From positions 4,559,001 to 4,623,000 of the forward strand of contig NZ_CP137573.1 of assembly GCF_033343995.1 (NCBI RefSeq): a stretch of DNA of 64,000 nt, given 5' to 3'. Below, piece after piece: positions 4,484 to 62,703 of this stretch; the stretch's first letter is position 1; each line of letters begins with the position of its first letter. The stretch comes from Streptomyces sp. HUAS YS2. GTDB taxonomy: Bacteria > Actinomycetota > Actinomycetes > Streptomycetales > Streptomycetaceae. The notes beneath the pieces were generated by a model. The model ran no database searches. It worked only from the letters and a program-made list of their open reading frames with translations, and had not been told where the DNA came from. A program made the translations under genes and the position numbers.

Positions 4484-4498
4484 CTGACGTGGCGTCAG
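4484..4498. promoter_or_regulatory. Operator box, fadD promoter
   Basis: CTGACGTGGCGTCAG, a perfect 6-bp inverted repeat around a 3-bp centre, 27 bp upstream of the ligase start at 4456. It belongs to the repeated palindrome family of this window (consensus CTGACG-N3-CGTCAG), with the spacing and symmetry of a TetR-family operator. Confidence 0.85.
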
Positions 4499-4561
4499 AT
4501 CGTGCGCAGAGCGTAGGCCCCTCCTCCTTGTCGGTCCAGGGGTGCGGGGCTAGCCTGCGTT

Positions 4562-4576
4562 CTGACGGGTCATCAG
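4562..4576. promoter_or_regulatory. Operator box, amidohydrolase operon
   Basis: CTGACGGGTCATCAG, 37 bp upstream of the ATG at 4614. One arm base differs from a perfect palindrome. The same 15-mer occurs at 23964 in front of the flavin reductase. Confidence 0.85.
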
Positions 4577-4613
4577 ATAAGGGTGGACTACGTACGTGCC
4601 ACGGAGGCGTCCC

Positions 4614-5804
4614 ATGACAGAACTGCCGCGGATCGTCAGCGTCGACGACCACGTGATCGAGCCGGCCCATCTCTTCGAGACCTGGCTGCCCGCCAAGTAC
4701 CGGGACCGCGGCCCCAAGCCGCTGACCGCCGGCATCGGCGAGCTGGCCTACGTCGGCGGCAAGTACCAGATCACCATGGACCCCGACGGTCCGCCGACCG
4801 ACTGGTGGATCTACGAGGACCTCAAGTTCCCGTACAAGCGGAACATCGCCGCCGTCGGCTTCGACCGCGACGACATGACGCTGGAGGGAATCACCCGCGA
4901 GGAGATGCGCCGCGGCTGCTGGGACCCCGCCGCGCGGCTCAAGGACATGGACCTCAACCATGTCGAGGCGTCGCTCTGCTTCCCGACCTTCCCGCGCTTC
5001 TGCGGCCAGACCTTCGCCGAGGCCAAGGACAAGGAGGTCGCGCTCGCCTGCGTCCGCGCCTACAACGACTGGATGGTCGAGGAGTGGTGCGGCGACAGCG
5101 GCGGCCGGCTCATCCCGCTGTGCATCATCCCGCTCTGGGACATCGACCTGGCCGTGGCGGAGATCCGGCGCAACGCGGCGCGCGGCGTGCGGGCGGTCAC
5201 GTTCTCGGAGATCCCCACCCACCTCGGACTCCCGTCCATCCACTCCGGGTACTGGGACCCGTTCTTCGCGGTCTGCCAGGAGACCGGCACCGTCGTGAAC
5301 ATGCACATCGGGTCGTCCTCGCAGATGCCGGCCGCGTCCCCGGACGCGCCGCCCGCCGTCCAGGCCTCGCTCAGCTTCAACAACGCGATGGCGTCGATGA
5401 TGGACTTCCTGTTCAGCGGCGTCCTGGTGAAGTTCCCGCGGCTGAAGCTGGCGTACAGCGAGGGCCAGATGGGGTGGATCCCGTACGCCCTGGAGCGGGC
5501 CGACGACGTGTGGGAGGAGCACCGCGCCTGGGGCGGGGTGCGCGACCTGATCCCCGAGCCGCCGTCCACGTACTACTACCGGCAGATCTTCTGCTGCTTC
5601 TTCCGCGACAAGCACGGCATCGCCTCGCTGGACGTGGTCGGGCGGGACAACGCCACGTTCGAGACCGACTACCCGCACGTCGACTCGACCTTCCCGCACA
5701 CCAAGGAGGTCGCCCTCGACCACGTCAAGGGACTGGACGACGAGACGATCTACAAACTGATGCGCGGCAACGCCATCCGGATGCTGGGCCTGGACCTCGT
5801 CTGA
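4614..5804 (+). CDS. Amidohydrolase-family metal-dependent hydrolase (paralogue 1)
   Basis: 396 aa; start ATG 4614 chosen for the GGAGG at 4603-4607. TIM-barrel hydrolase/decarboxylase of the amidohydrolase_2 (ACMSD-like) group. The N-terminal metal motif reads SVDDHVIEP rather than HxH. MHIGSSS (~res 228) supplies the barrel histidine, and FETDYPHVDSTFP near the C terminus the catalytic Asp and His. PTFPRFCGQTF and YNDWMVEEWCG are shared with its paralogue at 57430. First gene of an operon with two acyl-CoA dehydrogenases; its stop overlaps the next ATG by 1 bp (TGATG). Probable role: a hydrolytic or decarboxylating step on a CoA ester or ring-cleavage product. Substrate unknown. Confidence 0.92.
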   Translation: MTELPRIVSVDDHVIEPAHLFETWLPAKYRDRGPKPLTAGIGELAYVGGKYQITMDPDGPPTDWWIYEDLKFPYKRNIAAVGFDRDDMTLEGITREEMRRGCWDPAARLKDMDLNHVEASLCFPTFPRFCGQTFAEAKDKEVALACVRAYNDWMVEEWCGDSGGRLIPLCIIPLWDIDLAVAEIRRNAARGVRAVTFSEIPTHLGLPSIHSGYWDPFFAVCQETGTVVNMHIGSSSQMPAASPDAPPAVQASLSFNNAMASMMDFLFSGVLVKFPRLKLAYSEGQMGWIPYALERADDVWEEHRAWGGVRDLIPEPPSTYYYRQIFCCFFRDKHGIASLDVVGRDNATFETDYPHVDSTFPHTKEVALDHVKGLDDETIYKLMRGNAIRMLGLDLV

Positions 5805-6937
5805 TGGACCTGACGTACACGGCCGAGGAGGAGGAGTTCCGGGCCCGGCTGCGGGACTGGCTCGGCACCGTCCTGCCCAAACTGCCGCCGCGGCCCGATC
5901 CGCTCGACTGGCCCGGGCGGCGCGCGTACGACACCGGCTGGCAGCGGCTGCTGTACGACGCCGGCTACGCCGACGTGCACTGGGACGCGTCCCCCACCCA
6001 GCGGCTGATCTTCCTGGAGGAGACCGAGCGCGCCGGAGCCCCGTACGTCGGCGCGAACTTCGTCGGACTCCTGCACGCCGGGCCCACGATCGCCGCCGAG
6101 GGCACCGAGGAGCAGCGGGCGCGCTGGCTGCCGGGCGTGCTCAGCGGCGACGAGGTGTGGTGCCAGGGCTTCAGCGAACCCGACGCCGGTTCCGACCTGG
6201 CCTCCCTGCGCACCCGGGCGGTCCGGGACGGCGACGCGTACGTCGTGACCGGGTCGAAGATCTGGACCTCGCACGCCGAGGTCGCCGACTGGTGCGAACT
6301 GCTGGTCCGCACCGACCCCGACGCGCCGAAGCACCGCGGCATCAGCTGGCTCGCCATGCCGATGACCAGCCCCGGGATCACCGTGCGACCGCTGCGGACG
6401 CTGGCCGGCTCGACCGAGTTCGCGGAGATGTTCCTCGACGAGGTGCGGGTGCCGGTCGGCAACCGGGTCGGCGCGGAGAACGACGGCTGGCGGGTCACCA
6501 TGGTGACCCTGTCGTTCGAACGCGGCACCGCCTTCGTGGGCGAGGTCGTCGCCTGCCGCCGCACCCTCGGCGAACTGGCCCGCGCGGCCCGGGAGAACGG
6601 CTCCTGGGACGACCCGGTGATCCGGCGCCGGCTCGGCAGGCTGGCCGCCGAGTTCGCCGCGCTGTGGCGGCTCACCCAGTGGAACGTCAGCGAGGCGCAG
6701 GCGAGCGGCGGGGTGCCGGGGGTCGGCGGGTCGGTGTTCAAGCTCCAGTACTCGCACGCGCGGCAGGAGCTCTACGACATGGCGGCGGAGGTGCTCGGGC
6801 CGGACGCGCTGGACCTCGGGCAGGAGTGGAACGTGGACCGGCTGTCCTCGCTGTCGTACACGATCGCCGCGGGCACCTCGCAGATCCAGCGGAACATCGT
6901 CGCCGAGCGCATCCTCGGCCTGCCGAAGGGGCGGTGA
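5804..6937 (+). CDS. Acyl-CoA dehydrogenase, large subunit type
   Basis: 377 aa; ATG at 5804 overlaps the previous stop. Complete three-domain ACAD fold. The middle-domain signature is CQGFSEPDAGSDLASL (~res 118-133) and FAD/substrate residues lie in GSKIWTSHAE. The C-terminal helical signature is YTIAAGTSQIQRNIVAERIL (~res 350-370). It oxidises acyl-CoA to enoyl-CoA using FAD. The next gene, 7 bp on, is a second shortened ACAD. Such adjacent pairs in actinobacterial steroid degradation form alpha2beta2 enzymes (the FadE26/27 and FadE28/29 type), so a heteromer is likely here. Controlled by the box at 4562. Confidence 0.95.
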   Translation: MDLTYTAEEEEFRARLRDWLGTVLPKLPPRPDPLDWPGRRAYDTGWQRLLYDAGYADVHWDASPTQRLIFLEETERAGAPYVGANFVGLLHAGPTIAAEGTEEQRARWLPGVLSGDEVWCQGFSEPDAGSDLASLRTRAVRDGDAYVVTGSKIWTSHAEVADWCELLVRTDPDAPKHRGISWLAMPMTSPGITVRPLRTLAGSTEFAEMFLDEVRVPVGNRVGAENDGWRVTMVTLSFERGTAFVGEVVACRRTLGELARAARENGSWDDPVIRRRLGRLAAEFAALWRLTQWNVSEAQASGGVPGVGGSVFKLQYSHARQELYDMAAEVLGPDALDLGQEWNVDRLSSLSYTIAAGTSQIQRNIVAERILGLPKGR

Positions 6938-6944
6938 CCCAGCC

Positions 6945-7826
6945 ATGGACTTCCGGCTCACCGAGGACCAGAAGGCGCTGCGGGCGGGCGTGCGGGAGCT
7001 GCTCGCCCGGCGCTTCGACCGCGACGCGCTGCGGGCCGCCGTCGACGCGGGCGGGACGCTCGACCGCGCGCTGTGGCGGGAGCTCGGCGCGGCGGGCTTC
7101 TTCGCGCTGCGGCTCCCCGAGGAGGCGGGCGGCGTCGGGCTCGGGCTGCCCGAGGCCGTGCTGCTCTTCGAGGAGGCGGGCCGGGCGCTGCTGCCGGGGC
7201 CGCTGATCGCCACGCACCTGGCGGCGGGGGAGGTGCCGGGTGCGGCGGAGGGTGAGGTCGTGGTCACGGCGCGGGACGGCGCCCTGGTGGAGTGGCTGGA
7301 CGCGGCGGACGTGGTGCTCGGCGAGACCGGTGAGGCCGTGCCCGTACGGTCGGTGGACCCGCTCACGCCGCTGCACCGGGTGCCGTCGGCGGCGGGAACC
7401 GCGGTCTCGGTGGCCCCGCGGGCCGGCGCGGCGGCCCTGCTCAGCGCCGCCGAGCAGCTCGGCAGCGCCTCCGCGACCACGGACATGGCCGTCGCGTACG
7501 CCAAGGACCGGATCCAGTTCGGGCAGGCGATCGGCGGGTTCCAGGCCGTCAAGCACCTGTGCGCCGGGATGCTCGTACGGACCGAGCTGGCGCGGGCCGC
7601 CGTGTACGCGGCGGCCGTCACCGCGGACCCCGTCGAGATCGCCGGGGCCAAGCTGCTCGCCGACGAGGCGGCGGTGCGGGGCGCGCGGGACTGCCTGCAG
7701 GTGCACGGCGGGATGGGCTTCACCTGGGAGGCGGACGTGCACCTGCACCTGAAACGGGCCTGGGTGCGGGCCGAGCGGTGGATGCCGGCCGCGGCCGCCG
7801 AGGAGGCGGTGGCGGCGGCGCTGTGA
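6945..7826 (+). CDS. Acyl-CoA dehydrogenase, short partner subunit
   Basis: 293 aa, clearly shorter than a normal ~380-aa ACAD. The N-terminal helices are present (LPEEAGGVGLGLPEAVLLFE, ~res 58-77), but the middle beta-barrel is reduced to about 70 residues. The C-terminal helical domain keeps RIQFGQAIGGFQAVKH (~res 190) and QVHGGMGFTWEADVHLHLKR (~res 248-267). It follows the larger ACAD by 7 bp in the same operon, so I read it as the beta-like subunit of a heteromeric dehydrogenase. No frameshift is visible; the shortening looks native. It has no obvious activity on its own. Confidence 0.9.
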   Translation: MDFRLTEDQKALRAGVRELLARRFDRDALRAAVDAGGTLDRALWRELGAAGFFALRLPEEAGGVGLGLPEAVLLFEEAGRALLPGPLIATHLAAGEVPGAAEGEVVVTARDGALVEWLDAADVVLGETGEAVPVRSVDPLTPLHRVPSAAGTAVSVAPRAGAAALLSAAEQLGSASATTDMAVAYAKDRIQFGQAIGGFQAVKHLCAGMLVRTELARAAVYAAAVTADPVEIAGAKLLADEAAVRGARDCLQVHGGMGFTWEADVHLHLKRAWVRAERWMPAAAAEEAVAAAL

Positions 7827-8905: not shown

Positions 8906-9844
8906 CTACAGGATCGCCACCGGCGCCACCGGGCTTCCCGTGCCGCCGACGAAGGGTTCGGGTGTCGCGGAGAGCAGGAACGCGTACCGCCGCTCTTGTG
9001 CACAGGCTGTGGACAAGTTTTCCAGGTTCCAGTTCTGGCCCTGCAGCATTCCCATCTCGACGAGGTCGAGACCGTGCACCGGCAGCCACAGGTTCTCGAC
9101 CTCCGGCGGGAAGATCTCGAACGTGAGGGTGTCGTTCGCGACGGCGGCGACGTCACGGGCGTGGAACCACTCCGGCGTACGGATCGACAGGCCGGGGGAC
9201 GGGAACGCGTACCCGTGCTTGTCGCCGGCCAGATACGCCTGGACCTGCCCGGTCCGTACCAGCACGATGTCGCCGGCCCCGACCGTGACCCCGCCGAACT
9301 CCGCCGCCTCGTCCAGGTCCTCCGGCGTCACCGCGTGGTCGCCGGGGAGCCGGTCGACGCCCTTCGCGGCGGCGACGTCGAGCAGTACGCCCCGGCTCAC
9401 GAGGTGCCGGGCGGTGTGGATGCCGCTGAACTCGGAACGCCCGTGCGGGGTGATGGAGCCGGCGGGGCGGCCGTTGTAGATCCGGCCCGAGTGCGAGACG
9501 TGGGTGAGGGCGTCCCAGTGGGTGGCCGCCTGCAGTCCGAGGGTCACGGCGTCGTCGCTGGTGGCGATGGTGCCGGGGCCGAACAGCTCCTGATTGATCT
9601 GCACCATGACGTGCAGCGGGTTGACGCGGCCCGGGATCATGCCGGTCTGCACGCCGTCCTGCACCAGGTCCAGCGCGAGCGGCACGCGGAGGCCGGAGCG
9701 GACGGTGCGGGCGGCCTCCCGGACCACCTCGTCGGTGATGAGGTTGAGCGTCCCGATCTCGTCGTCGGCGCCCCAGCGGCCCCAGTTGTTGACGCGCTTG
9801 GCGATGTCGTGGAACTCGGCGGGGAGAGGGGCGGGGACAGACAT
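8906..9844 (-). CDS. Cyclase-family (kynurenine formamidase-like) metal-dependent hydrolase
   Basis: 312 aa; ATG at 9844 behind a strong GGAGG. Member of the cyclase (PF04199) family. The metal-binding signature is ATHWDALTHVSHSG (~res 108-121), the family's HxGTHxDxxxH motif with W in place of G. Family members hydrolyse N-formylkynurenine or other amides and lactones. C-terminal conserved piece: NLWLPVHGLDLVEMGMLQGQ. Divergent from an SDR gene; the 96-bp gap holds a box with one arm mismatch and a half-box of the regulon palindrome. A hydrolytic ring-opening or lactonase step in the catabolic pathway is a reasonable guess. Confidence 0.9.
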   Translation of the reverse strand: MSVPAPLPAEFHDIAKRVNNWGRWGADDEIGTLNLITDEVVREAARTVRSGLRVPLALDLVQDGVQTGMIPGRVNPLHVMVQINQELFGPGTIATSDDAVTLGLQAATHWDALTHVSHSGRIYNGRPAGSITPHGRSEFSGIHTARHLVSRGVLLDVAAAKGVDRLPGDHAVTPEDLDEAAEFGGVTVGAGDIVLVRTGQVQAYLAGDKHGYAFPSPGLSIRTPEWFHARDVAAVANDTLTFEIFPPEVENLWLPVHGLDLVEMGMLQGQNWNLENLSTACAQERRYAFLLSATPEPFVGGTGSPVAPVAIL

Positions 9845-9903: not shown

Positions 9904-9918
9904 CTAACGGACCGTCAG
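9904..9918. promoter_or_regulatory. Operator box, SDR/cyclase divergent promoter
   Basis: CTAACGGACCGTCAG, one mismatch from a perfect CTGACG-N3-CGTCAG, 22 bp upstream of the SDR start at 9941. Centre-to-centre distance to the half-box at 9874 is 30 bp. Confidence 0.75.
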
Positions 9919-9940: not shown

Positions 9941-10855
9941 GTGGGGAACTTCTTGGCAGGCAAGGTCGTCGCCGTCACCGGAGCGGGACGGGGCATCGGC
10001 CGTGCCGTCGCCCTCGCATGTGCGGCGGAGGGCGCGAAGGTCGTCGTCAACGACTACGGGGTGTCGATCGAGGGCGGCGAGCCGACCTCGGACGTGGCGC
10101 TGTCCGTGGTGAAGGAGATCGAGGAGGCGGGCGGTTCGGCCGTCGCCGTCGCCGACGACATCTCGACGATGGCCGGTGGACAGCGGGTCGTCGACACGGC
10201 GCTCGCGGAGTACGGGCGGATCGACGGGGTCGTGTGCGTGGCGGGCATCCTGCGCGAACGGATGCTCTTCAACATGTCCGAGGAGGAGTGGGACCCGGTG
10301 GTCGCCACCCACCTCAAGGGCACCTTCACCGTCTTCCGGGCGGCCTCCGCGGTCATGCGGAAGCAGGGCGGCGGCACGCTGATCGGCTTCACCAGCGGCA
10401 ACCACCAGGGCTCCGTCGCGCAGGCGAACTACTCGGCGGCGAAGGGCGGGATCATCTCGCTCGTCCGGAGCGCGGCGCTCGGGCTGCACAAGTACGGGGT
10501 GACCGCGAACGCGGTCGCGCCGGTGGCGCGGACCCGGATGTCGGCGAACGTACCGATGGAACTGAAGGAGATCGGCGAGCCGGAGGACGTGGCGGCGCTC
10601 GTCGTCTACCTGCTCTCCGAGCGGGCGAGGGCGGAGAGGATCACCGGCCAGGTGTACACGATCGCCGGCCCGAAGATCGCGGTCTGGGCCCAGCCCAGGG
10701 AACTGCGCGCCGGCTACGCGGAGTCGGGCGCGTGGACCCCGGAACGCATCGCGGACTTCCTGCCGGGGACGGTGGGGGTGGACCCGATGCCGATGCTGGC
10801 GATGCTGGAGGAAATGGCAAAGGCCGCGGCCTCGGGAGACCGGCCGAACGGGTAG
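9941..10855 (+). CDS. SDR-family 3-hydroxyacyl-CoA dehydrogenase-like oxidoreductase
   Basis: 304 aa, GTG start at 9941. Classical short-chain dehydrogenase: cofactor loop TGAGRGIGRA (~res 14-23), a VAGIL segment replacing NNAG (~res 98), catalytic Tyr/Lys in YSAAK (~res 165-169). The long N-terminal loop (VVVNDYGVSIEGGEP) and overall shape match the dehydrogenase domain of 17-beta-HSD type 4/MFE-2 and Hsd4 proteins, which oxidise 3-hydroxyacyl-CoA. The C-terminal tail (ERIADFLPGTVGVDPMP) is longer than in minimal SDRs. Placed in the regulon by the box at 9904. Confidence 0.93.
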   Translation: MGNFLAGKVVAVTGAGRGIGRAVALACAAEGAKVVVNDYGVSIEGGEPTSDVALSVVKEIEEAGGSAVAVADDISTMAGGQRVVDTALAEYGRIDGVVCVAGILRERMLFNMSEEEWDPVVATHLKGTFTVFRAASAVMRKQGGGTLIGFTSGNHQGSVAQANYSAAKGGIISLVRSAALGLHKYGVTANAVAPVARTRMSANVPMELKEIGEPEDVAALVVYLLSERARAERITGQVYTIAGPKIAVWAQPRELRAGYAESGAWTPERIADFLPGTVGVDPMPMLAMLEEMAKAAASGDRPNG

Positions 10856-10874
10856 CGGCGCCGCGGGGTGGTCC

Positions 10875-10918
10875 CCCGTGTGGGCAATCGTCCCGCTGGG
10901 GCGGGACGGGTGGGCACA
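10875..10918. repeat. Imperfect intergenic inverted repeat
   Basis: Arms CCCGTGTG...CGTCCCG and CGGGACG...CACACGGG around CTGG form a long imperfect hairpin between the SDR and the next ACAD. From memory, closely similar palindromes recur in Streptomyces intergenic regions; copy number in this genome cannot be checked here. It may also terminate the SDR transcript. Confidence 0.6.
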
Positions 10919-11101
10919 CGGGACGGCGCCCTGGCGGGCGCGTTCCGCACGTGTTCCTGCCCGCGCCACGGGGCGGTGCACCTGGAGAGCGGGCCGGGTA
11001 CGGGGTGCGGGTACGAGCTTGGGGCGGAGGCGCTCGAGCAGGGGGACCCCCATCGCCCCAGCGGAGTGAATGCCCACAACGGTGGTGGAGAGGAGGCAGG
11101 C

Positions 11102-12247
11102 GTGGACTTCGAGTTCGGGGTGGAGGACGAGGCGTTCAGGTCGGAGGCTCGGGAGTGGTTTCACGCGCATCCGCCGCAGCGCGGCGACCCGCGCGCGTGG
11201 GAGCGGGAGCTCGGTGCCGGGGGGTGGGTCGGGATCGGGTGGGGGGCCGGCGGGTTCGGGAATCGAACCGCCTCGCTGACCCAGCAGGTCGTCTGGGGCG
11301 AGGAGTACGCGCGGGCCGGCGGGCCGACCCGGCTCGGGCACATCGGGGAGAACCTGCTCGCGCCGACCCTGCTCGCTCATGGGACCGAGGAGCAGCGGCG
11401 GCGGTTCCTTCCCCCCATCGCCCGCGGCGAGGAGCTGTGGTGTCAGGGGTACTCCGAGCCCGGGGCCGGGTCCGATCTCGCCGGGGTGCGGACCCGCGCC
11501 GTGCGGGACGGGGACCGGTACCTGATCAGTGGGCAGAAGATCTGGACCTCGCTCGCCCTCGACGCCGACTGGTGTTTCGTGCTCGCCCGGACCGAGGAAG
11601 GGTCCGTCAGACATCGGGGGCTGTCCTTCCTGCTCGTTCCCATGGACCAGCCCGGTCGCATCGAGGTGCGGCCCATCCGGCAGATGTCCGGGACCAGCGA
11701 GTTCAACGAGGTCTTCTTCGACGGCGCCGTCGCCCACGCCCGGGACCTCGTCGGCGCCGAGGGCGACGGCTGGCGCGTCGCCATGGGGCTGCTCGCCCTG
11801 GAGCGCGGGGTGTCCACCCTCGTCCAGCAGGTCGGGTTCGCCGTCGAGTTGGAGGATGTGATCCGGACGGCCGTCCGTAACGGCGCCGTTCGAGATCCCG
11901 TCCTCGCCGAGCGGCTCGTCCGACAGTGGGCCGAGCTGCGCGTCATGCGGTGGAACGCCCTGCGCACCCTCGGCCGCACCGACGACCCCGGCGCGCCCAG
12001 CGTCGCCAAGCTGCTGTGGGGCGGCTGGCACCGTCGGCTCGGGGAGCTGGCGATGGCGGTGCGCGGCGCCGCCGCGACCAGCGGGCCCGGGCCGTGGGAC
12101 GGCGCGTACGAACTCGACGACCAGCAGCGGATGTTCCTCTTCAGCCGGGCCGACACCATCTACGGCGGCTCGGACGAGATCCAGCGCAACATCATCGCCG
12201 AGCGCGTGCTCGGCCTGCCGAGGGAAGCGAAGGAGGAGAGCCGATGA
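11102..12247 (+). CDS. Acyl-CoA dehydrogenase
   Basis: 381 aa; GTG start at 11102 supported by AGGAGG at 11091-11096. Full-length ACAD: YSEPGAGSDLAGVRTRAV (~res 117), GQKIWTSLALDADW, and the C-terminal DTIYGGSDEIQRNIIAERVL (~res 350-370). FAD-dependent oxidation of an acyl-CoA. Its stop shares ATGA with the downstream alcohol dehydrogenase. No regulon box lies directly upstream; it may be read from the SDR promoter through a 246-bp gap or from its own promoter. The gap contains repeat-like sequence (10875-10918, and GGGGGACCCCC at 11040-11050 within a CTCGAG-containing element). Confidence 0.94.
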   Translation: MDFEFGVEDEAFRSEAREWFHAHPPQRGDPRAWERELGAGGWVGIGWGAGGFGNRTASLTQQVVWGEEYARAGGPTRLGHIGENLLAPTLLAHGTEEQRRRFLPPIARGEELWCQGYSEPGAGSDLAGVRTRAVRDGDRYLISGQKIWTSLALDADWCFVLARTEEGSVRHRGLSFLLVPMDQPGRIEVRPIRQMSGTSEFNEVFFDGAVAHARDLVGAEGDGWRVAMGLLALERGVSTLVQQVGFAVELEDVIRTAVRNGAVRDPVLAERLVRQWAELRVMRWNALRTLGRTDDPGAPSVAKLLWGGWHRRLGELAMAVRGAAATSGPGPWDGAYELDDQQRMFLFSRADTIYGGSDEIQRNIIAERVLGLPREAKEESR

Positions 12248-13293
12248 GAGGTGTCGTGTTCGACGGCAAGGAGGCCCTGGTCGTCGATGATCTGGAGATA
12301 CGCGACCCCGGCCCCGGCGAGGTGCTCGTCGCGATCGCCGCGGCCGGACTGTGCCACAGCGACCTGTCCGTCATCGACGGGACCATCCCGTTCCCGCCGC
12401 CGGTGGTCCTCGGCCACGAGGGCGCCGGGGTCGTCGAGGCCGTCGGCGCGGGCGTCACGCACGTCGCCCCCGGCGACCACGTGGCCCTGTCCACCCTCGC
12501 GAGCTGCGGCGCCTGCGCCGACTGCGACCGGGGCCGGCCGACGATGTGCCGCAAGGCGATCGGGATGCCCGGGCAGCCGTTCTCCCGGGGCGGGAAGCCG
12601 ATCTTCCAGTTCGCCTCGAACTCCGCCTTCGCGGAACGGACGATCGTCAAGGCCGTCCAGGCCGTGAAGATCCCCGCCGACATCCCGCTGACCTCCGCCG
12701 CCCTGATGGGATGCGGTGTCCTCACCGGCGTCGGTGCCGTCCTCAACCGGGCCAAGGTCGAACCCGGCGACACCGTCGTCGTGATCGGCACCGGCGGGAT
12801 CGGCCTCAACGTGCTGCAGGGCGCCCGGATCGCCGCCGCGTCCGTGATCGTCGCGGTCGACACCAACCCCGCGAAGGAGGAGGTCGCCCTGCAGTTCGGC
12901 GCGACGCACTTCCTCACCTCCGCCGACGCCGTACGGGACGTCCTGCCGACCGGCGCCGACCACGTCTTCGAGTGCGTCGGCCACACCGGTCTCGTCCGGC
13001 AGGCGATCGACCTGCTCGACCGGCACGGCCAGGCGATCCTGCTCGGCATGACCTCGCCGAAGGCCGAGGCGACGTTCCTGCCCGCCGCGATGTTCCTGGA
13101 CAAGTCGATCCTCGGCTGCCGGTACGGCTCCTCCCGGCCGCAGCGCGACCTCGCCCTGTACGCGGAGCTGTACCGGCAGGGGCGGCTGCTGCTCGACGAA
13201 CTCGTCACCGAGACCTACCCGGTGGAGGACTTCGCCAAGGCCGCCGAGGACGCCCACCAGGGGCGGGTCGCGCGGGGCGTGCTCACGTTCTGA
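12244..13293 (+). CDS. Zn-dependent alcohol dehydrogenase (MDR family)
   Basis: 349 aa, ATG overlapping the previous stop (ATGA). Catalytic zinc: C37-H38 in AAGLCHSDLS and GHEGAGVVE (~res 58-66). Structural zinc: a four-Cys lobe CGACADCDRGRPTMC (~res 89-103). NAD(P) Rossmann loop: VIGTGGIGLNVLQGA (~res 180). It oxidises an alcohol to aldehyde or ketone in the cytosol. Most similar in layout to class III/benzyl-alcohol type enzymes. It is coupled to the acyl-CoA dehydrogenase, so probably handles a hydroxylated pathway intermediate; substrate unknown. Confidence 0.94.
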   Translation: MRGVVFDGKEALVVDDLEIRDPGPGEVLVAIAAAGLCHSDLSVIDGTIPFPPPVVLGHEGAGVVEAVGAGVTHVAPGDHVALSTLASCGACADCDRGRPTMCRKAIGMPGQPFSRGGKPIFQFASNSAFAERTIVKAVQAVKIPADIPLTSAALMGCGVLTGVGAVLNRAKVEPGDTVVVIGTGGIGLNVLQGARIAAASVIVAVDTNPAKEEVALQFGATHFLTSADAVRDVLPTGADHVFECVGHTGLVRQAIDLLDRHGQAILLGMTSPKAEATFLPAAMFLDKSILGCRYGSSRPQRDLALYAELYRQGRLLLDELVTETYPVEDFAKAAEDAHQGRVARGVLTF

Positions 13294-23963: not shown

Positions 23964-23978
23964 CTGACGGGTCATCAG
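23964..23978. promoter_or_regulatory. Operator box, flavin reductase/trpF gap
   Basis: CTGACGGGTCATCAG, identical to the box at 4562. It is 17 bp upstream of the flavin reductase start and 59 bp upstream of the divergent trpF ATG, so it could affect both. Confidence 0.85.
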
Positions 23979-24036
23979 ATGGGAACCCCCGCGGACCCTC
24001 CGGAAGCGCCGTACCCGCCTGCGTAGAGTGGCCCGC

Positions 24037-28161: not shown

Positions 28162-28175
28162 GTACGGTCCCTTTC

Positions 28176-30431: not shown

Positions 30432-30446
30432 CTGACGCATAGTCAG
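30432..30446. promoter_or_regulatory. Operator box A, synthetase/crotonase operon
   Basis: CTGACGCATAGTCAG, 33 bp upstream of the ATG at 30398. One arm mismatch. First of a tandem pair. Confidence 0.82.
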
Positions 30447-39197: not shown

Positions 39198-39205
39198 GCC
39201 GTCAG
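39191..39205. promoter_or_regulatory. Degenerate operator box over the TetR start codon
   Basis: CTGTCATGCCGTCAG on the + strand: one perfect CGTCAG arm, the other arm with two mismatches. It contains the ATG of the regulator (39195-39197 complement). Candidate autoregulatory site. Confidence 0.5.
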
Positions 39206-45657: not shown

Positions 45658-46085
45658 CCGCGCTCCAGCAGCCAGCGGGGCACGGTCATCCCGTCGATCT
45701 CGGTGAACGCCACCTTCACCGCCGCGCCGATCCGCAGCCGGGCCGGGTCCACGGAGTTCAGCGCGGCGTCGGGCGCGGCGACGACGTTGCCGGCCAGCCG
45801 GATGCGGGGCGCGTCGGCGAGCTCGACGAGGACCGCGTTGTACGGGGCCTGGGCGGCGTAGTCGGGCAGCAGCGGCGGATGCGGGATCACGTACGACCAG
45901 ATCCGGCCGCGGCCGGACATCAGCCGCCACTCGCTGTCGAAGGACTGGCAGTGCGGGCAGCAGGGGCGGGGCGGGAAGCGCAGCTCGCCGCAGTCGGGGG
46001 CCGCGCAGGCCTGGACGCGCAGCTCGCCCCGGGCGGCGTACTCCCAGAAGGGCGCGCCGTCCTCGTCGACGACGGGACTCAGCAT
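45654..46085 (-). CDS. DUF35 OB-fold/zinc-ribbon protein, thiolase partner
   Basis: 143 aa, ATG at 46085. Zinc ribbon QACAAPDCGELRFPPRPCCP with Cys pairs (C-x4-C and CCPHC, ~res 26-46), then an OB-fold (GRIWSYVIPHPPLLPDYAAQ; VLVELADAPRIRLAGNVV). It starts 6 bp after the thiolase stop, with its GAGGAG SD inside the thiolase gene, and overlaps the crotonase by ATGA. The tight coupling predicts a stable thiolase-DUF35 complex, as known for SCP-x/DUF35 pairs. Confidence 0.92.
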   Translation of the reverse strand: MLSPVVDEDGAPFWEYAARGELRVQACAAPDCGELRFPPRPCCPHCQSFDSEWRLMSGRGRIWSYVIPHPPLLPDYAAQAPYNAVLVELADAPRIRLAGNVVAAPDAALNSVDPARLRIGAAVKVAFTEIDGMTVPRWLLERG

Positions 46086-46091
46086 GACGGA

Positions 46092-47234
46092 TCAACTCCT
46101 CAGCAGGACGGCGGATGTGGGGACGCCCTCGCCGGCGGTGACGAGGCAGGTGGCGGCGTCGGGGACCTGGGCGGTGGAGGTGCCGCGCAGTTGCTTCACG
46201 CCCTCGTTGATGAGGTTGAAGCCGTGCACGTACGCCTCCGAGAGCCCGCCGCCGCCGGTGTTGAGGGGCAGCCGCCCGCCGATCTCCAGCGCGCCGCCCT
46301 CGGTGAACGCGCCGCCCTCGCCGCGTCCGCAGAACCCGTACCCCTCCAGGGAGAGCGGGACGAGCGGGGTGAAGGCGTCGTAGATCTGGGCGACGTCGAC
46401 GTCCTGGGGCCCGAAGTCGGCCTGCTTCCACAGGTGTCGGGCGGCCGTCCAGGCGGGGCCGGTGAGCGGGTCGTCGTTCCAGTAGTTGACCATGCCGTGG
46501 TGCTGGGCGGGCAGTCCCTGGGCGGCGGAGTGGACGTACACCGGCTTCTGCCGGCAGTCGCGGGCCCGTTCGGCGGAGACGATCACACAGGCCAGCGCGC
46601 CGTCGGTCTCCAGGCAGTTGTCGAAGAGGCAGAGCGGCTCGCTGATCCAGCGGGCGGTCATGTACATCTCGCGGGTCAGCGGGCGTTCGTACATGATCGC
46701 GTCGGGGTTCTGGTTGGCCCGGTTGCGGCAGGCGAGCGCGACGTTGAAGAGGTGGTCGCGGGTGGCGCCGTACTCGTGCATGTAGCGGCGGGCGAGCATG
46801 CCGATCTCGTCGGCGGGCCGCAGCAGCCCGAACGGCCGGGTCCACTGGCCGGGCGTGGGCAGCTGGACGGCGGTGTTCTTCCAGGGCCGGGGCCCGGAGC
46901 CGCGCTTGCGGGACCGCCAGGCGACGCCGACGGAGGCCTGCCCGGAGGCGATGGCGGCGGCGAGGTGCCCGACGGTGGCGCAGGAACCGCCGCCGCCGTA
47001 CCCCACCTTGCTGAAGAAGGTGACGTCGCCCGCCCCGATCGCCTTGGCGACCTCGACCTCGTCGGTCTCCTCCATCGTGTACGAGGCGAACGCGTCCACC
47101 TCGGAGGGTGCGATGCCCGCGTCGTCCAGAGCGGCGAGGATCGCCCGGCAGGCGAGTGTTCTCTCGGACTCGGGCAGTTGTTTGGCGAAGGGTGTCTGCC
47201 CGATCCCCACGATGGCTGTGCGGTCCTTGAGCAC
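46092..47234 (-). CDS. SCP-x-type thiolase (lipid-transfer protein family)
   Basis: 380 aa from GTG 47234, preferred because AAGGGG lies 5 bp upstream (GTG 47258 is possible). Thiolase fold: TAIVGIGQTPFAKQLPESER, YGGGGSCATVGHLAAAIASG with candidate nucleophile C85, RRYMHEYGATRDHLFNVALA (~res 148-167), VAQIYDAFTPLVPLSLEGYG (~res 281-300) and PLNTGGGGLSEAYVHGFNLI (~res 322-341). Unlike its relative at 35433 it keeps the Cys, so it can be a true thiolase releasing acetyl- or propionyl-CoA. First gene of the operon, controlled by the box at 47261. Confidence 0.92.
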   Translation of the reverse strand: MLKDRTAIVGIGQTPFAKQLPESERTLACRAILAALDDAGIAPSEVDAFASYTMEETDEVEVAKAIGAGDVTFFSKVGYGGGGSCATVGHLAAAIASGQASVGVAWRSRKRGSGPRPWKNTAVQLPTPGQWTRPFGLLRPADEIGMLARRYMHEYGATRDHLFNVALACRNRANQNPDAIMYERPLTREMYMTARWISEPLCLFDNCLETDGALACVIVSAERARDCRQKPVYVHSAAQGLPAQHHGMVNYWNDDPLTGPAWTAARHLWKQADFGPQDVDVAQIYDAFTPLVPLSLEGYGFCGRGEGGAFTEGGALEIGGRLPLNTGGGGLSEAYVHGFNLINEGVKQLRGTSTAQVPDAATCLVTAGEGVPTSAVLLRS

Positions 47235-47260: not shown

Positions 47261-47275
47261 CTGACAGCGCGTCAG
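47261..47275. promoter_or_regulatory. Operator box, thiolase operon
   Basis: CTGACAGCGCGTCAG, one arm mismatch, 26 bp upstream of the thiolase start at 47234. Confidence 0.82.
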
Positions 47276-47287
47276 GCTACAGCTAAT

Positions 47288-47302
47288 CTGACGGACAGTC
47301 AG
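47288..47302. promoter_or_regulatory. Operator box, divergent fadD
   Basis: CTGACGGACAGTCAG, one arm mismatch, 18 bp upstream of the FadD ATG at 47321 and 27 bp centre-to-centre from the box at 47261. Confidence 0.83.
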
Positions 47303-47320: not shown

Positions 47321-48871
47321 ATGCGCGGCGACCTGGAGTGGGGCTCGATACCGAGGCTCGTGCGCTCGGCGGCGGAACGGTACGGGGCACAGGAGGCGGT
47401 CGTCGAGGGCCGCACCCGCGTCTCGTACGCCGAGCTGGGCGAACGCGTCGAACGCGCGGCGGCCGCGTGCATCGCGGCGGGCGTCCGGCCCGGCGACCGG
47501 GTCGCCCTCTGGGCCCCCAACACCCTCGACTGGATCGTCTCCGCGCTCGGCGCGGTGACGGCCGGGGCGGTGCTCGTCCCCCTGAACACCCGCTTCAAGG
47601 GGGCGGAGGCGGCGTACGTACTGGCCCGGTCGCGGGCCCGGCTGCTGTTCATCACCGGCACCTTCCTCGGCACCTCGTACGTGGCGTCGCTGCGCCGCTC
47701 CGGGGTCGAACTCCCCGACCTGGAACGGGTGGTGGTCTTCGGCGACGGCGCCCCTGACGACTACACGACCTGGAAGGAGTTCCTGGCCGCGGGGGACACG
47801 GTGAGCGCGGCGGAGGTACGGGAACGGGCGGACGCGGTGGACAGCTCGGCCCCCTCGGACATCATCTACACCTCGGGCACGACGGGCGCGCCCAAGGGCG
47901 CGGTGATCACCCACGCCCAGACCCTGCGCTGCTACGACGTCTGGTCGGAGCTGGCCGGGCTGCGACAGGGCGACCGCTACCTGATCGTGAACCCGTTCTT
48001 CCACACCTTCGGCTACAAGGCCGGCATCATCGCCTGCCTGATGCGGGGCGCGGTGATGATCCCGCAGCCGGTGTTCAACGTGGACACGGTGCTCGCCAAC
48101 ATCGCCTCGGAGCGCGTCTCGGTGCTGCCCGGCCCGCCGACGCTCCACCAGTCGCTCCTGGACCACCCGTCCCGCTCCTCGTACGACCTGTCGGCGCTGC
48201 GGCTGGTGGTCACGGGCGCGGCGGTCGTGCCGTTGCGGCTGGTCGAGCGGCTGCGCGGGGAGCTGGGCGTGGGGACGGTGCTGACGGCGTACGGCCTGTC
48301 GGAGGCCAGCGGCATCGTCACGATGTGCCGGCAGGGCGACGCGGCGGAGGTCATCGCCACGACGTCGGGCCGGGCGATCCCGGACACCGAGGTCCGCCTC
48401 TCGGAGGCGGGCGAGGTCCTGGTCCGCGGCCACAACGTGATGACCGGCTACTTCGAGGACGCCTCGGCCACGAGCGAGGCGATCGACGCGGACGGCTGGC
48501 TCCACACCGGCGACGTGGGCGTCCTCGACGAGGCGGGCAACCTGCGGATCACCGACCGGATCAAGGACATGTTCATCGTCGGCGGCTTCAACGCGTACCC
48601 GGCGGAGATCGAACAACTCCTGGGCCTGCACCCGGACATCGCGGACGTGGCGGTGATCGGCATCAGCGACCCCCGCCTCGGCGAGGTCGGCAAGGCCTTC
48701 GCCGTCCGCCGCCCGGGCGCGACGGTGACGGCGGACGACCTGATCGCCTGGTCGCGTCGCGAGATGGCGAACTACAAGGTCCCGCGCGAGGTCGAGTTCG
48801 TCACCGAACTCCCGCGCAACGCCAGCGGGAAGGTCGTGAAGGGCGAACTGCGGGAGCGGACGGGCGCCTGA
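47321..48871 (+). CDS. Fatty-acid/steroid-type acyl-CoA ligase (FadD family)
   Basis: 516 aa; ATG at 47321 chosen for GGAGGGG five bases upstream. ANL ligase: P-loop IIYTSGTTGAPKGAVITH (~res 182-199), NPFFHTFGYKAG (~res 226), A5 YGLSEASGIVT (~res 325), DGWLHTGDVGVLDEAG (~res 392), and LPRNASGKVVKGELRE with the catalytic Lys (~res 500-511). It resembles FadD3/FadD17-type ligases of steroid-degrading actinobacteria. It acts on a different acid from the ligase at 2954, with which it shares only the family motifs. Divergent from the thiolase operon. Confidence 0.94.
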   Translation: MRGDLEWGSIPRLVRSAAERYGAQEAVVEGRTRVSYAELGERVERAAAACIAAGVRPGDRVALWAPNTLDWIVSALGAVTAGAVLVPLNTRFKGAEAAYVLARSRARLLFITGTFLGTSYVASLRRSGVELPDLERVVVFGDGAPDDYTTWKEFLAAGDTVSAAEVRERADAVDSSAPSDIIYTSGTTGAPKGAVITHAQTLRCYDVWSELAGLRQGDRYLIVNPFFHTFGYKAGIIACLMRGAVMIPQPVFNVDTVLANIASERVSVLPGPPTLHQSLLDHPSRSSYDLSALRLVVTGAAVVPLRLVERLRGELGVGTVLTAYGLSEASGIVTMCRQGDAAEVIATTSGRAIPDTEVRLSEAGEVLVRGHNVMTGYFEDASATSEAIDADGWLHTGDVGVLDEAGNLRITDRIKDMFIVGGFNAYPAEIEQLLGLHPDIADVAVIGISDPRLGEVGKAFAVRRPGATVTADDLIAWSRREMANYKVPREVEFVTELPRNASGKVVKGELRERTGA

Positions 48872-57394: not shown

Positions 57395-57409
57395 CTGACG
57401 GAGCGTCAG
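57395..57409. promoter_or_regulatory. Operator box, amidohydrolase 2
   Basis: CTGACGGAGCGTCAG, perfect arms, 20 bp upstream of the ATG at 57430 and 129 bp upstream of the divergent afsR start. Confidence 0.88.
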
Positions 57410-57429: not shown

Positions 57430-58650
57430 ATGGAGACCTTCCCGAAGATCATCTCGGTGGACGACCACACCGTGGAGCCCCCCAGCGTCTGGCGGGACCG
57501 GCTCCCGTCCAAGTACCGCGACGTCGGCCCCCGCATCGTCCGCGCCCCCCTGAAGGAAATGACCTTCCTGGGCGGGAAGTTCGCGCCCGTCATGGGCGCC
57601 AAGGGCGACGACGGGCCGATCGGCGACTGGTGGGTGTACGAGGACCTGCACCGCCCGCTGACCCGGCTCGACACCGCCGTCGGCTACGACAGGGACGAGA
57701 TCAAGCTCGAGGTCATCACGTACGAGCAGATGCGGCCGGGCTCCTGGTCCGTCCCCGACCGGCTCGCCGACATGGACGTCAACCACGTCCAGTCCGCCCT
57801 CTGTTTCCCCACCTTCCCCCGCTTCTGCGGCCAGACGTTCACCGAGGCGTCAGACCGCGAACTGGGACTGCTCGGCGTGCGCGCGTACAACGACTGGATG
57901 GTGGAGGAGTGGTGCGGTCCCGAGGCGCGGGGCCGGCTCATCCCGCTCACCCTCGTCCCGCTCTGGGACGCGCACCTCGCCGCCGAGGAGGTCCGGCGCA
58001 ACGCCGCCCGCGGCGTGCGCGCCGTGGCGTTCTCCGAGATACCGCCGCACCTGGGCCTGCCGTCGATCCACACCGACTACTGGGACCCGTTCCTCGCCGC
58101 CTGCGACGAGACCGGGACCGTCGTCGCCATGCACATCGGCTCCTCCAGCCGGATGCCGTCCACCTCGGCGGACGCGCCGCCCGCCGTCGGCTCCACGATC
58201 ACCTTCGCGAACTGCTGCTTCTCGATGGTCGACTGGCTGATGAGCGGCAAGTTCGAGCGCTTCCCCAACCTGAAGATCATGTACGCGGAGGGCCAGATCG
58301 GCTGGATCCCGTACATCCTGGAGCGCGCCGACGTGGTCTGGGAGGAGAACCGCGGCTGGGGCGGCGTCGCCGACAAGGTGCTGCGCCCGCCGTCCGAGCT
58401 GTTCGCGAACCACGTGTACGGCTGCTTCTTCGACGACGCGTTCGGCCTGAAGAACCTGGACGCGATCGGCGTGGGCAACGTCCTGTACGAGACGGACTAC
58501 CCGCACTCCGACTCCACCTGGCCCAAGTCCCGCGAGGTCGGCGAGGCCCAGATGGGGCACCTGGACCCGGCGACCGTGGACCGGATCGTGCGCGGCAACG
58601 CCATCGACCTGCTCCAGCTGACGAAGGACGGCCTCTGGCCGGGCGCGTAG
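57430..58650 (+). CDS. Amidohydrolase-family metal-dependent hydrolase (paralogue 2)
   Basis: 406 aa, ATG at 57430 with GTGAAAG upstream. Close paralogue of the protein at 4614: ISVDDHTVEPPSVWRDRLPS (~res 8-27), WVYEDLHRPLTRLDTAVGYD, CFPTFPRFCGQTFTEASDRE (~res 124-143), MHIGSSSRMPSTSADAPP (~res 235) and YETDYPHSDSTWP (~res 354-366). TIM-barrel hydrolase with the same H-x2-E type N-terminal motif instead of HxH. It stands alone under its own regulon box. The two copies probably act on related compounds or at successive steps. Confidence 0.92.
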   Translation: METFPKIISVDDHTVEPPSVWRDRLPSKYRDVGPRIVRAPLKEMTFLGGKFAPVMGAKGDDGPIGDWWVYEDLHRPLTRLDTAVGYDRDEIKLEVITYEQMRPGSWSVPDRLADMDVNHVQSALCFPTFPRFCGQTFTEASDRELGLLGVRAYNDWMVEEWCGPEARGRLIPLTLVPLWDAHLAAEEVRRNAARGVRAVAFSEIPPHLGLPSIHTDYWDPFLAACDETGTVVAMHIGSSSRMPSTSADAPPAVGSTITFANCCFSMVDWLMSGKFERFPNLKIMYAEGQIGWIPYILERADVVWEENRGWGGVADKVLRPPSELFANHVYGCFFDDAFGLKNLDAIGVGNVLYETDYPHSDSTWPKSREVGEAQMGHLDPATVDRIVRGNAIDLLQLTKDGLWPGA

Positions 58651-60827: not shown

Positions 60828-60842
60828 CTGACGGTCCGTCAG
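60828..60842. promoter_or_regulatory. Operator box A, LLM/SDR operon
   Basis: CTGACGGTCCGTCAG, perfect arms, 69 bp upstream of the ATG at 60912. Paired with the box at 60871. Confidence 0.85.
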
Positions 60843-60870: not shown

Positions 60871-60885
60871 CTGACGAGCCGTCAG
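60871..60885. promoter_or_regulatory. Operator box B, LLM/SDR operon
   Basis: CTGACGAGCCGTCAG, perfect arms, 26 bp upstream of the ATG at 60912; 43 bp centre-to-centre (about four turns) from box A. Confidence 0.87.
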
Positions 60886-60911: not shown

Positions 60912-61832
60912 ATGGTCATGTACGGGATGCAGCTCCCGGTCCAGTCGCAGAGCGCCCTGTACGCCGAGTCCTGGGAGGCCGCCGCGGGCCCCGCCGACCT
61001 GGTGGAGATCGCCCGGGTCGCCGACCGGACCGGCTTCGGCTACCTCGCCTCCTGCGACCACGTCGCCATCCCGCGGCGGCTCGCCGGGGCGATGAGCACG
61101 ATCTGGTACGACCCGGTCGCCACGCTCTCCTACCTCGCCGCCGCCACCGAGCGGGTCCGGCTGATGTCGCACGTCGCCATCGTCGGCCTGCGTCACCCGC
61201 TGGTCTCCGCCAAGGCGTACGCGACCCTCGACCGCCTGTCCGGCGGCCGGCTGATCCTCGGCGTCGGCGCCGGGCACGTGCAGGAGGAGTTCGAGGCGGT
61301 CGGCGCGGACTTCGCCCGGCGCGGTGCGCTGCTCGACGAGACGATCGACGCGCTCCGGGCCGCGCTGGGCCCGGAGGAGTACCCGGAGTTCGGCGGCGAG
61401 CGCTTCTCCTTCAAGGACCTGGGGCAGCAGCCCCGGCCCGTGCAGCAGCGGGTGCCGCTCTGGGTGGGCGGCTCCTCGCCGGCCGCCGTGCGGCGCGCCG
61501 CGCTGCGCGGCGACGGCTGGCTGCCGCAGGGCGACCCGCGCGACAAGCTGCCGGAGAAGATCGCGAAGCTCCGCGCGCTGCGCGAGGAGGCCGGCATCGA
61601 GGCGCCGTTCACCGTCGGCGCGATCACCGAGGCGCTGTACGTCGGGGAGGCCGGCTGGGACGTCGGCCGGCGCACCCTGACGGGCGCGCCGGAGGCGCTG
61701 GCGGCCTCGCTGCGGGCCTACGGGGAGATGGGCGTGCACCAGATCCAGGTCCGGTTCCGGTCCCGGAGCCGTACCGAACTCACCGACCAGATGGCGGCGT
61801 TCGCCGCGGAGGTCGCACCACACCTGAGCTGA
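60912..61832 (+). CDS. LLM-class F420-dependent oxidoreductase
   Basis: 306 aa, ATG at 60912. Luciferase-like TIM barrel of the F420 subgroup: IARVADRTGFGYLASCDHVA (~res 33-52), TERVRLMSHVAIVGLRHPLV (~res 78-97), AKAYATLDRLSGGRLILGVG (~res 99-118), GAGHVQEEFEAVGADFARRG, VPLWVGGSSPAAVRRAALRG (~res 184-203). It transfers hydride between F420 and an alcohol, ketone or enone. First gene of an operon with an SDR, under two boxes. Substrate unknown. Confidence 0.93.
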   Translation: MVMYGMQLPVQSQSALYAESWEAAAGPADLVEIARVADRTGFGYLASCDHVAIPRRLAGAMSTIWYDPVATLSYLAAATERVRLMSHVAIVGLRHPLVSAKAYATLDRLSGGRLILGVGAGHVQEEFEAVGADFARRGALLDETIDALRAALGPEEYPEFGGERFSFKDLGQQPRPVQQRVPLWVGGSSPAAVRRAALRGDGWLPQGDPRDKLPEKIAKLRALREEAGIEAPFTVGAITEALYVGEAGWDVGRRTLTGAPEALAASLRAYGEMGVHQIQVRFRSRSRTELTDQMAAFAAEVAPHLS

Positions 61833-61846
61833 GGAGCGTGGCAGGC

Positions 61847-62608
61847 ATGGGCAAGCTGGACGGGCGCGTCGTGATCGTGACGGGCGCGGCGCGCGGGCAG
61901 GGCGAGCAGGAGGCCCGGCTGTTCGCCGCCGAGGGGGCCCGGGTGGTCCTCGGTGACGTGCTCGACGACGCCGGAGAGGCGCTGGCGAAGGAGCTGGGCG
62001 AGGACCGGGCGGCGTACGTCCACCTCGACGTGACGCGCGAGACGGACTGGACGGCGGCGGTCGCGCGGGCCAAGGAGAGGTTCGGGCGGATCGACGGCCT
62101 CGTCAACAACGCGGGGATCCTGCGGTTCAACGAGCTGGTGTCGACGCCGCTTGAGGAGTTCCAGGCGATCATCCAGGTCAACCAGATCGGCTGCTTCCTG
62201 GGGATCCGTACGGTCGCGCCCGAGATCGAGGCGGCCGGCGGCGGCACGATCGTCAACACCTCCTCGTACACCGGGGTGACCGGCATGGCCGGGGTGGGCG
62301 CGTACGCGGCGACCAAGCACGCGGTGCTCGGCCTGACCCGGGTCGCGGCGGTGGAGCTGGCGGGGAAGAACATCCGGGTGAACGCGGTCTGCCCGGGCGC
62401 CATCGACACCCCGATGAGCAACCCGGAGGGCGTGGATCCGGCGGCGACGGCGGAGCTGTACCGGAGCCTGGTGCCGCTGGGCCGGATCGGGAAGCCGGAG
62501 GAGGTCGCGGCGCTCGCGCTGTTCCTGACCTCGGAGGACTCGGCGTACATCACGGGACAGCCGTTCGTGATCGACGGCGGCTGGCTGGCCGGCGTCAAGC
62601 TCTTCTGA
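61847..62608 (+). CDS. SDR-family oxidoreductase
   Basis: 253 aa from ATG 61847, 10 bp after GAGGAG (GTG 61838 is too close to it). Classical SDR: VIVTGAARGQGEQEARLFAA (~res 9-28), DVTRETDW, VNNAGIL (~res 86-92), catalytic Ser and Tyr/Lys in NTSSYTGVTG and YAATKHAVLGLTRVAAVEL (~res 152-170), VNAVCPGAIDTPM (~res 180-192). Resembles 20-beta- or 3-alpha-hydroxysteroid dehydrogenases in length and motifs, which is weak evidence for a steroid-like substrate. 14 bp after the F420 oxidoreductase. Confidence 0.94.
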   Translation: MGKLDGRVVIVTGAARGQGEQEARLFAAEGARVVLGDVLDDAGEALAKELGEDRAAYVHLDVTRETDWTAAVARAKERFGRIDGLVNNAGILRFNELVSTPLEEFQAIIQVNQIGCFLGIRTVAPEIEAAGGGTIVNTSSYTGVTGMAGVGAYAATKHAVLGLTRVAAVELAGKNIRVNAVCPGAIDTPMSNPEGVDPAATAELYRSLVPLGRIGKPEEVAALALFLTSEDSAYITGQPFVIDGGWLAGVKLF

Positions 62609-62625
62609 CCCTCGCGTCGAATCAT

Positions 62626-62640
62626 CTGACGCTTCATCAG
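62626..62640. promoter_or_regulatory. Operator box A, second LLM gene
   Basis: CTGACGCTTCATCAG, one arm mismatch, 87 bp upstream of the TTG start at 62728. Confidence 0.8.
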
Positions 62641-62688
62641 CTATTGACGCACCCGCCGTGCGGTGCGACAGTCGGGCACATCAAGGAT

Positions 62689-62703
62689 CTGACGGTACGT
62701 CAG
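62689..62703. promoter_or_regulatory. Operator box B, second LLM gene
   Basis: CTGACGGTACGTCAG, perfect arms, 24 bp upstream of the TTG at 62728; 63 bp centre-to-centre (six turns) from box A. Confidence 0.87.

Follow-up and report, generated by a model that had tools for sequence, protein, structure and literature searches.

A dispersed palindrome in Streptomyces sp. HUAS YS2 as the candidate operator of a probably TetR-controlled catabolic regulon

We analysed a stretch of 64,000 nucleotides (the window) from the chromosome of Streptomyces sp. HUAS YS2 (NZ_CP137573.1, positions 4,559,001 to 4,623,000), in which one palindrome, CTGACG-N3-CGTCAG, recurs before catabolic genes. The sequence data indicate that these boxes mark a real, strongly conserved and genome-wide catabolic regulon with a probable regulator. 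The palindrome is probably the operator of a single TetR-family repressor, and the SCO4421-type protein encoded at 38550–39197 is its most likely identity. Judged from its enzyme families, the regulon most likely serves to degrade an acid of polycyclic isoprenoid structure, sterol- or terpenoid-like, that carries a side chain.

The palindrome and its distribution

A scan of the window for the 15-mer with at most one mismatch yielded 16 matches, compared with a mean of 0.60 and a maximum of 3 in 100 dinucleotide shuffles, and 16 of 16 were located in gaps between predicted genes. The same 16 coordinates had been given as strong copies in promoter gaps by an earlier, sequence-only reading of this DNA; the observation of a dispersed palindrome is confirmed as real. 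When three mismatches were allowed the 15-mer was not in excess in the window (67 found, 78.5 expected), so the signal resides only in the strong copies. Two weaker copies had also been claimed, of which the one at 39191 is real though weak (12.2 of 32 bits) and the one at 9874 proved to be a half-site only, below 11 bits. Since the 16 aligned boxes show a preference for A or T on either flank, the predicted operator is a 19-bp palindrome, ATCTGACG-N3-CGTCAGAT. The gene types ascribed to the boxed units by the sequence-only reading agree with the Pfam matches, and the absence of boxes from the unrelated genes interspersed among them was supported. Three genes that face a box are taken as bystanders: PRAI (24028–24645) and SUKH (30654–31157), which were not found in the five compared stretches, and AfsR (54260–57187), which persists where boxes are gone. 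The called start of thiolase 1 may be too early, the match in a genome of another genus (G055) beginning further in.

The genome, a single contig of 7.88 Mb, was scanned for the 19-mer at up to two mismatches and contains 28 sites, 13 of them in the window. By midpoint 27 of the 28 are intergenic, while about 86% of the examined DNA is coding (binomial p = 2e-22); the comparison of gaps with coding DNA proposed in the sequence-only reading thus came out in favour of the gaps. That reading had described a local regulon. A real catabolic regulon with one palindrome was borne out, but the distal boxes make it genome-wide, and its most telling members, a CYP125-type P450 and a FadA5-type thiolase, are encoded about 1 Mb outside the window. 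A catabolic target is not evident for six of the 28 sites (Table 1).

Table 1. Boxes and genes of the window (window coordinates), followed by sites elsewhere in the chromosome (chromosome coordinates). ACAD, acyl-CoA dehydrogenase; SDR, short-chain dehydrogenase/reductase; LLM, luciferase-like monooxygenase; Ltp, lipid-transfer protein
Feature	Position	Strand	Remark
Operator CTGACGTGGCGTCAG	4484..4498		27 bp from AMP-ligase start
AMP-forming acyl-CoA ligase	2954..4456	-	Pfam
Operator	4562..4576		37 bp from amidohydrolase 1; promoter boxed in 80/80 close relatives
Amidohydrolase 1 (DitZ-like) and two ACAD genes	4614..7826	+	
PF04199 cyclase/hydrolase	8906..9844	-	Pfam
Operator	9904..9918		between cyclase (-) and SDR (+)
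SDR, ACAD, zinc alcohol dehydrogenase	9941..13293	+	Pfam
Flavin reductase, HsaB-like	23351..23932	-	199 bits, below cut-off 230
Operator	23964..23978		before HsaB-like flavin reductase (-)
Enoyl-CoA hydratase and ADP-forming acyl-CoA synthetase	27361..30398	-	Pfam
Operator	30432..30446		before ADP-forming acyl-CoA synthetase (-)
Operator	30456..30470		second in ADP-forming acyl-CoA synthetase gap
Operator	32456..32470		before DoxX/DUF35 unit (+)
DoxX-like protein and DUF35/ChsH2-type protein	32493..33370	+	DoxX-like: 23.1 bits, cut-off 23.6
Thiolase/aldolase 1	35433..36620	-	Pfam
Operator	36625..36639		before thiolase 1 (-), 4 bp from its called start
Operator	36731..36745		before ACAD (+)
ACAD and F420H2-dependent quinone reductase	36763..38447	+	ACAD: best PDB match 6wy8 Tcur3481
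TetR-family regulator, 215 aa	38550..39197	-	proposed operator reader
Weak operator-like palindrome	39191..39205		over TetR start codon; 12.2 bits; nearly invariant in relatives
Enoyl-CoA hydratase, DUF35 protein, Ltp thiolase	44866..47234	-	best PDB match of thiolase 6ok1
Operator, weaker	47261..47275		Ltp/FadD3 gap; 14.8 bits as 19-mer
Operator	47288..47302		Ltp/FadD3 gap
FadD3-family acyl-CoA ligase	47321..48871	+	823 bits, cut-off 657
Operator	57395..57409		before amidohydrolase 2 (+)
Amidohydrolase 2 (DitZ-like)	57430..58650	+	
Operator	60828..60842		before LLM 1
Operator	60871..60885		before LLM 1
F420-type LLM oxidoreductase (LLM 1) and SDR	60912..62608	+	
Operator	62626..62640		before LLM 2
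Operator	62689..62703		before LLM 2
Second LLM oxidoreductase (LLM 2)	62728..63852	+	
Distal box	4638840		before SDR and 284-aa protein
Distal box	2400771		before LLM enzyme
Distal box	5635099		before MaoC hydratase, 173 bp away
Distal box	5858558		before ferredoxin reductase
Distal box	6718286		before ChsH2-type zinc-ribbon protein (DUF35)
Distal box	2240984		before another SDR
Distal box	4134570		before ACAD
Distal box	7530036		before NMO-type enzyme
Distal box	5588824		divergent CYP125-type P450/FadA5-type thiolase pair, 15 and 227 bp
Site	1392650		inside GntR gene; catabolic target not evident
Site	2568436		maltokinase gap; catabolic target not evident
Site	3435286		2-oxoacid oxidoreductase; catabolic target not evident
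Site	3770909		catabolic target not evident
Site	5624827		catabolic target not evident
Site	6043776		PorA; catabolic target not evident

A main role as transcription terminator, or as a structural repeat scattered through the genome, is highly improbable for the palindrome. The own-genome sites of at least 19 bits (n = 30) were found in 17 divergent and 11 tandem gaps, with two in genes and none between convergent genes (site 5624827 was convergent under earlier gene calls), and the window sites are placed ahead of the starts of genes with related functions, an association preserved in another genus. A few own-genome sites do come after stop codons (5624827, 2568436, 3435286). Similar palindromes also occur at 68–244 copies per genome in the family f13, and among the sites sampled in one f13 genome (G141, L162–L176) and one genome of genus g14 of family f1, presumably the Streptomycetaceae (G027, L177–L191), 24 of 38 and 13 of 20, respectively, lay in genes or between convergent genes as called with the codon model of the window, some holding both stop codons. 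The palindromes of these two genomes may be bidirectional terminators or another dispersed repeat, and part of the class-wide motif excess is therefore not operator. For the same reason an argument from counts alone, the near-perfect tie of motif counts with TetR presence, was dropped, and five f13 genomes were removed from the TetR test given below. The FadA5 test included the eight g14 genomes and was repeated with these removed; the sampling covered one genome each of f13 and g14, further high-count genera being g2, g4, g5 and g6. A reversed-pattern control (0–1 matches per genome) was not relied on, as it makes an unfair null when the motif is a palindrome; a better background is provided by the TetR-negative genomes outside f1, which have 0–6 sites, except G201 with 16.

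Conservation of the boxes was followed in the promoter of amidohydrolase 1, whose best named match is from Streptomyces sp. SKN60 (98%). The set consisted of the best 80 of 592 candidate loci, all close relatives with 93–98% protein identity. A box of at least 17 bits was present in 80 of the 80 promoters, two or more in 79, and none was detected in a 400-bp coding control from each of the 80 loci. In the half-sites of the proximal box 10 of 12 columns are invariant and the remaining two are kept in 78 or 79 of 80 loci, figures biased towards the motif by the choice of boxes by score, which leaves the 80/80 and the empty control unaffected. One near-invariant column keeps an A that departs from the overall consensus. 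Variation is seen in the spacer (0.2–1.05 bits), in the flanks past the adjoining A (at most about 0.5 bits) and in the distance to the start.

Gene content was compared over 40–80 kb around the TetR gene in each genome. The box-rich genomes G052 (same genus) and G055 (another genus) have boxes before the same genes as in the window and contain 24 of the 24 boxed genes; in G044, G012 and G060 the corresponding numbers are 1, 0 and 0. Of 30 unboxed genes, G052 and G055 have 12 and 10, and G044, G012 and G060 have 9, 7 and 12. Because nearly all boxed units are absent from the latter three genomes and present in the former two, they appear to be gained or lost as a set from a fixed backbone. The genes of this backbone, which lack boxes (sigma, STAS, TetR, KbpA, a kinase at the position of AfsK, AfsR-type), resemble the afsK/afsR neighbourhood, and the gene at 39451–40341 matches the Streptomyces KbpA model of NCBIfam over its cut-off. 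Box-rich genomes, with at least 15 sites, make up about two thirds (18 of 28) of those sampled in the genus.

Three side observations concern the same region. G044, without the other boxed genes at the locus, retains a strong box before the HsaB-like flavin reductase (L094:14903; G044:C1:2929903). In the window, a kinase domain is fused to a major facilitator superfamily transporter (24740–27223), and a 392-aa protein without a Pfam or NCBIfam match (59588–60766) is encoded downstream of amidohydrolase 2 and an LCM-type methyltransferase.

The candidate repressor

The only TetR gene of the window encodes a protein with an N-terminal helix-turn-helix and an alpha-helical ligand domain, as in TetR-family repressors. 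It matches PF00440 at 25.5 bits (cut-off 24) and PF19352 at 246 bits, both scored on a shorter 185-aa call, and its AlphaFold model (pLDDT 91, 10 helices) is closest in fold to EthR. The gene was found in 61 of 61 family genomes, as a single copy in 60 and as two copies in G022. TetR-family repressors bind palindromic operators, often in their own promoters. In five genomes of families f12, f14 and f18 (f18-g80 being presumably Frankia-like) the gene is located among or next to boxes and has one upstream of it, and in Streptomyces its box is weak. In G071, G073 and G095 (f12, f14) the upstream box is about 3–42 bp from the called or aligned TetR start, and in G184 and G114 (f18) about 230–250 bp from it. 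In G095, G114 and G184 homologues of the Streptomyces targets, with about 50–70% identity, are located in the same cluster as TetR and include targets that are distal in Streptomyces (the P450, the NMO or the 284-aa protein); FadA5 also belongs to the TetR cluster of G095 and G114. The DNA-reading segment is nearly unchanged across families: the rows of f1, f12, f14 and f18 share the GTSxATFYQYF segment and the DGRxxGRRG arm at an overall identity of 47–53%. Presence of TetR was compared with site number in a class sample of 296 genomes, leaving out f1, the five f13 genomes and four weak f18-g51 matches. At least 7 sites, a limit picked post hoc with the counts already known, were found in 11 of 16 TetR-positive and 1 of 243 TetR-negative genomes.

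At the TetR start (window 39195–39210) the sequence TAA(A/G)CTGACGGC-ATG hardly varies within the family; it resembles a -10 box immediately followed by a leaderless start codon that the weak operator overlaps.

The boxes could instead form one coregulon read by another regulator encoded elsewhere, either a different TetR_N protein or a member of another family, with the SCO4421-type TetR a mere neighbour. The genome has 137 TetR_N matches, TetR persists in box-poor genomes, its own box in Streptomyces is weak, and among the own-genome sites examined no regulator gene with a clearly own strong box was seen, the window TetR included. We nevertheless consider such a regulator unlikely. Of the window regulators, only TetR has a well-matching homologue next to boxes in the f12, f14 and f18 stretches, whereas the response regulator and kinase pair was only weakly matched in G073 (39 and 31%). 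A box is positioned right at the TetR start in three genomes, TetR presence tracks box number outside the family, and, in a comparison by eye, no other TetR_N match came closer than about 7 kb to a site with up to two mismatches.

Several observations weigh against our assignment of the boxes to TetR and of the regulon to isoprenoid catabolism. TetR and its promoter are kept in near-box-less genomes (0 sites in G012, 1 in G044, 3 in G060) and TetR therefore has at least one other role; the local repressor claimed in the sequence-only reading stands as the likely reader of the box but not as one dedicated to the locus, since it is retained where the boxed genes are nearly all gone. In the own genome the strong box nearest to TetR is 1.8 kb off and its own box is weak. 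No TetR was found in G201 (16 sites; assembly 68% complete) or in G203 (6 sites), while G081 has TetR and 0 sites and the TetR of G090 has an in-frame TGA. The genes around TetR in G071 match the Streptomyces targets at only 28–43%, and G073 has better target matches on contigs other than that of TetR. The CYP125–FadA5 interval of f14 contains no box of at least 17 bits. Among the 61 family genomes 27, including some rich in sites, gave no FadA5 match (E to 1e-130), and the box-less G012 does have a FadA5-type thiolase. The high counts in f13 and f1-g14, at largely genic or convergent sampled sites, belong here too, and the enrichment tests take no account of phylogeny.

Enzymes of the regulon and the probable substrate

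The set of boxed enzymes indicates as substrate an acid with a polycyclic isoprenoid skeleton and a side chain, and the steroid- or terpenoid-like acid suggested in the sequence-only reading is plausible by enzyme family. Genes of the sterol side-chain type (CYP125, FadA5, Ltp/DUF35, FadD3) are present among the boxed ones. The boxed P450 scored 516 bits against CYP125 and 324 against CYP124, and the boxed thiolase 502 bits against FadA5, with the next match at 251, and 688 bits against the equivalog NF005889 (cut-off 515). The window Ltp matched the lipid-transfer protein 6ok1 at 335 bits. The ACAD of the unit at 36763–38447 scored 124 bits against Tcur3481 and 208 bits as IpdE2-like, below the cut-off of 450. 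For amidohydrolases 1 and 2 DitZ was the best match (193 and 197 bits), followed by PtmU3 (128 and 138 bits). Within the family, boxes are more numerous in the 34 genomes that have a FadA5-type thiolase than in the 27 that lack one (p = 4e-6; 1e-7 without genus g14).

Ordinary branched or long-chain fatty acids or alicyclic acids, with the CYP125 and FadA5 likeness generic, are a rather improbable alternative substrate class. Many members come from beta-oxidation families of a generic kind, the ACADs have sub-cut-off matches to pimeloyl-CoA dehydrogenase models, and lipase-like, wax-ester synthase and branched-chain-type ABC transporter genes are further members of the f14 cluster. Both the P450 and the thiolase, however, match steroid enzymes far above their paralogues, and an Ltp/DUF35 aldolase pair is present; such pairs are a hallmark of cyclic-terpenoid side-chain cleavage.

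A complete degradation pathway, also put forward as probable in the sequence-only reading, was not borne out. A search of 17 genomes for the KshA_C family gave matches over cut-off in 7. KshA is at no listed box in the window genome and was not detected in five of the ten regulon-bearing genomes tested (G052, G055, G003, G095, G071); the regulon is therefore not simply the classical pathway. The own-genome match (G000:C1:5996803-5997426, L155; 297 bits) is at a long distance from all near-consensus sites; the 570-aa frame of this KshA_C-type protein has no NCBIfam match. Weaker best matches occur in G073 (136 bits), G184 (90), G155 (98) and G114 (98), none near a listed site, and the box-less G012 has a strong one. 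KshA does not accompany the regulon, and a KshA-type enzyme may be present in half of the tested regulon-bearing genomes.

The binding, repression, inducer, substrate and reaction order that we infer would be as follows. Bound as a dimer to the 19-bp boxes, most of them 15–60 bp upstream of a start codon, TetR would keep about 14 units in the window and roughly 9–11 elsewhere in the chromosome from being transcribed, until displaced by a hydrophobic acid or the CoA thioester of that acid. The isoprenoid side chain would be activated and beta-oxidised by the CYP125-type P450, acyl-CoA ligases, ACADs, hydratases, the FadA5-type thiolase and Ltp/DUF35 retro-aldolases, after which LLM flavin/F420 enzymes and DitZ-like amidohydrolases would attack the ring system, KshA not being boxed. 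A broader proposal, which we put forward tentatively and hold to be less probable than not, is a so far unrecognised KshA-independent route for sterols, hopanoids or other polycyclic terpenoids in many Streptomyces and in members of several other actinobacterial families. It would combine the CYP125/FadA5/Ltp side-chain module with a new ring-opening module (FMN-/F420-dependent LLM oxygenases and DitZ-like amidohydrolases) under an SCO4421-type repressor, with a pathway CoA thioester as inducer and spore expression linking it to development.

Comparison with known systems

We take the window TetR to be the homologue of S. coelicolor SCO4421, on its position close to afsK and the locus name; the SCO4421 gene, close to afsK, occupies the place of the window TetR. 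In the portions of PMC3878966 available, SCO4421 is described as whiA-dependent and spore-expressed, with no deletion phenotype detected, and no regulon is mentioned, unlike here. No description of the present regulon or its motif was found in the literature searched, including the accessible parts of PMC4810484 and PMC9782250, the former being a 2016 survey in which, as far as that text extends, known steroid pathways were not found in 55 of 57 Streptomyces genomes. If our assignment is true, it would give a function to a conserved orphan Streptomyces regulator and show that a genus surveyed as almost devoid of known steroid pathways has a large catabolic regulon of the sterol or terpenoid type. 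The silent S. coelicolor deletion might be explained if that strain is without the boxed genes, and the operator and repressor pair could serve as a biosensor.

EthR regulates a neighbouring monooxygenase gene in mycobacteria. It is the closest solved fold to the window TetR (TM about 0.78), at 16–18% identity in those matches. DitZ and PtmU3, the best and next matches of both boxed amidohydrolases although distant ones, are diterpenoid-related amidohydrolases.

KstR and KstR2 of mycobacteria and rhodococci differ from the system described here in several respects. No KstR is named among the 10 PDB sequence matches of the window TetR, in which EthR is listed (the KstR sequence itself was not compared), and the fold is closest to EthR. 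The KstR operator motif differs from the window palindrome. KshA is at no listed box here, and LLM and DitZ-like amidohydrolase genes are prominent. The two systems are alike in having a TetR repressor and palindromic operators over dispersed genes of the ACAD, thiolase, Ltp, DUF35, CYP125 and FadD3 types, and the regulon would belong to this known type, TetR-controlled lipid catabolism.

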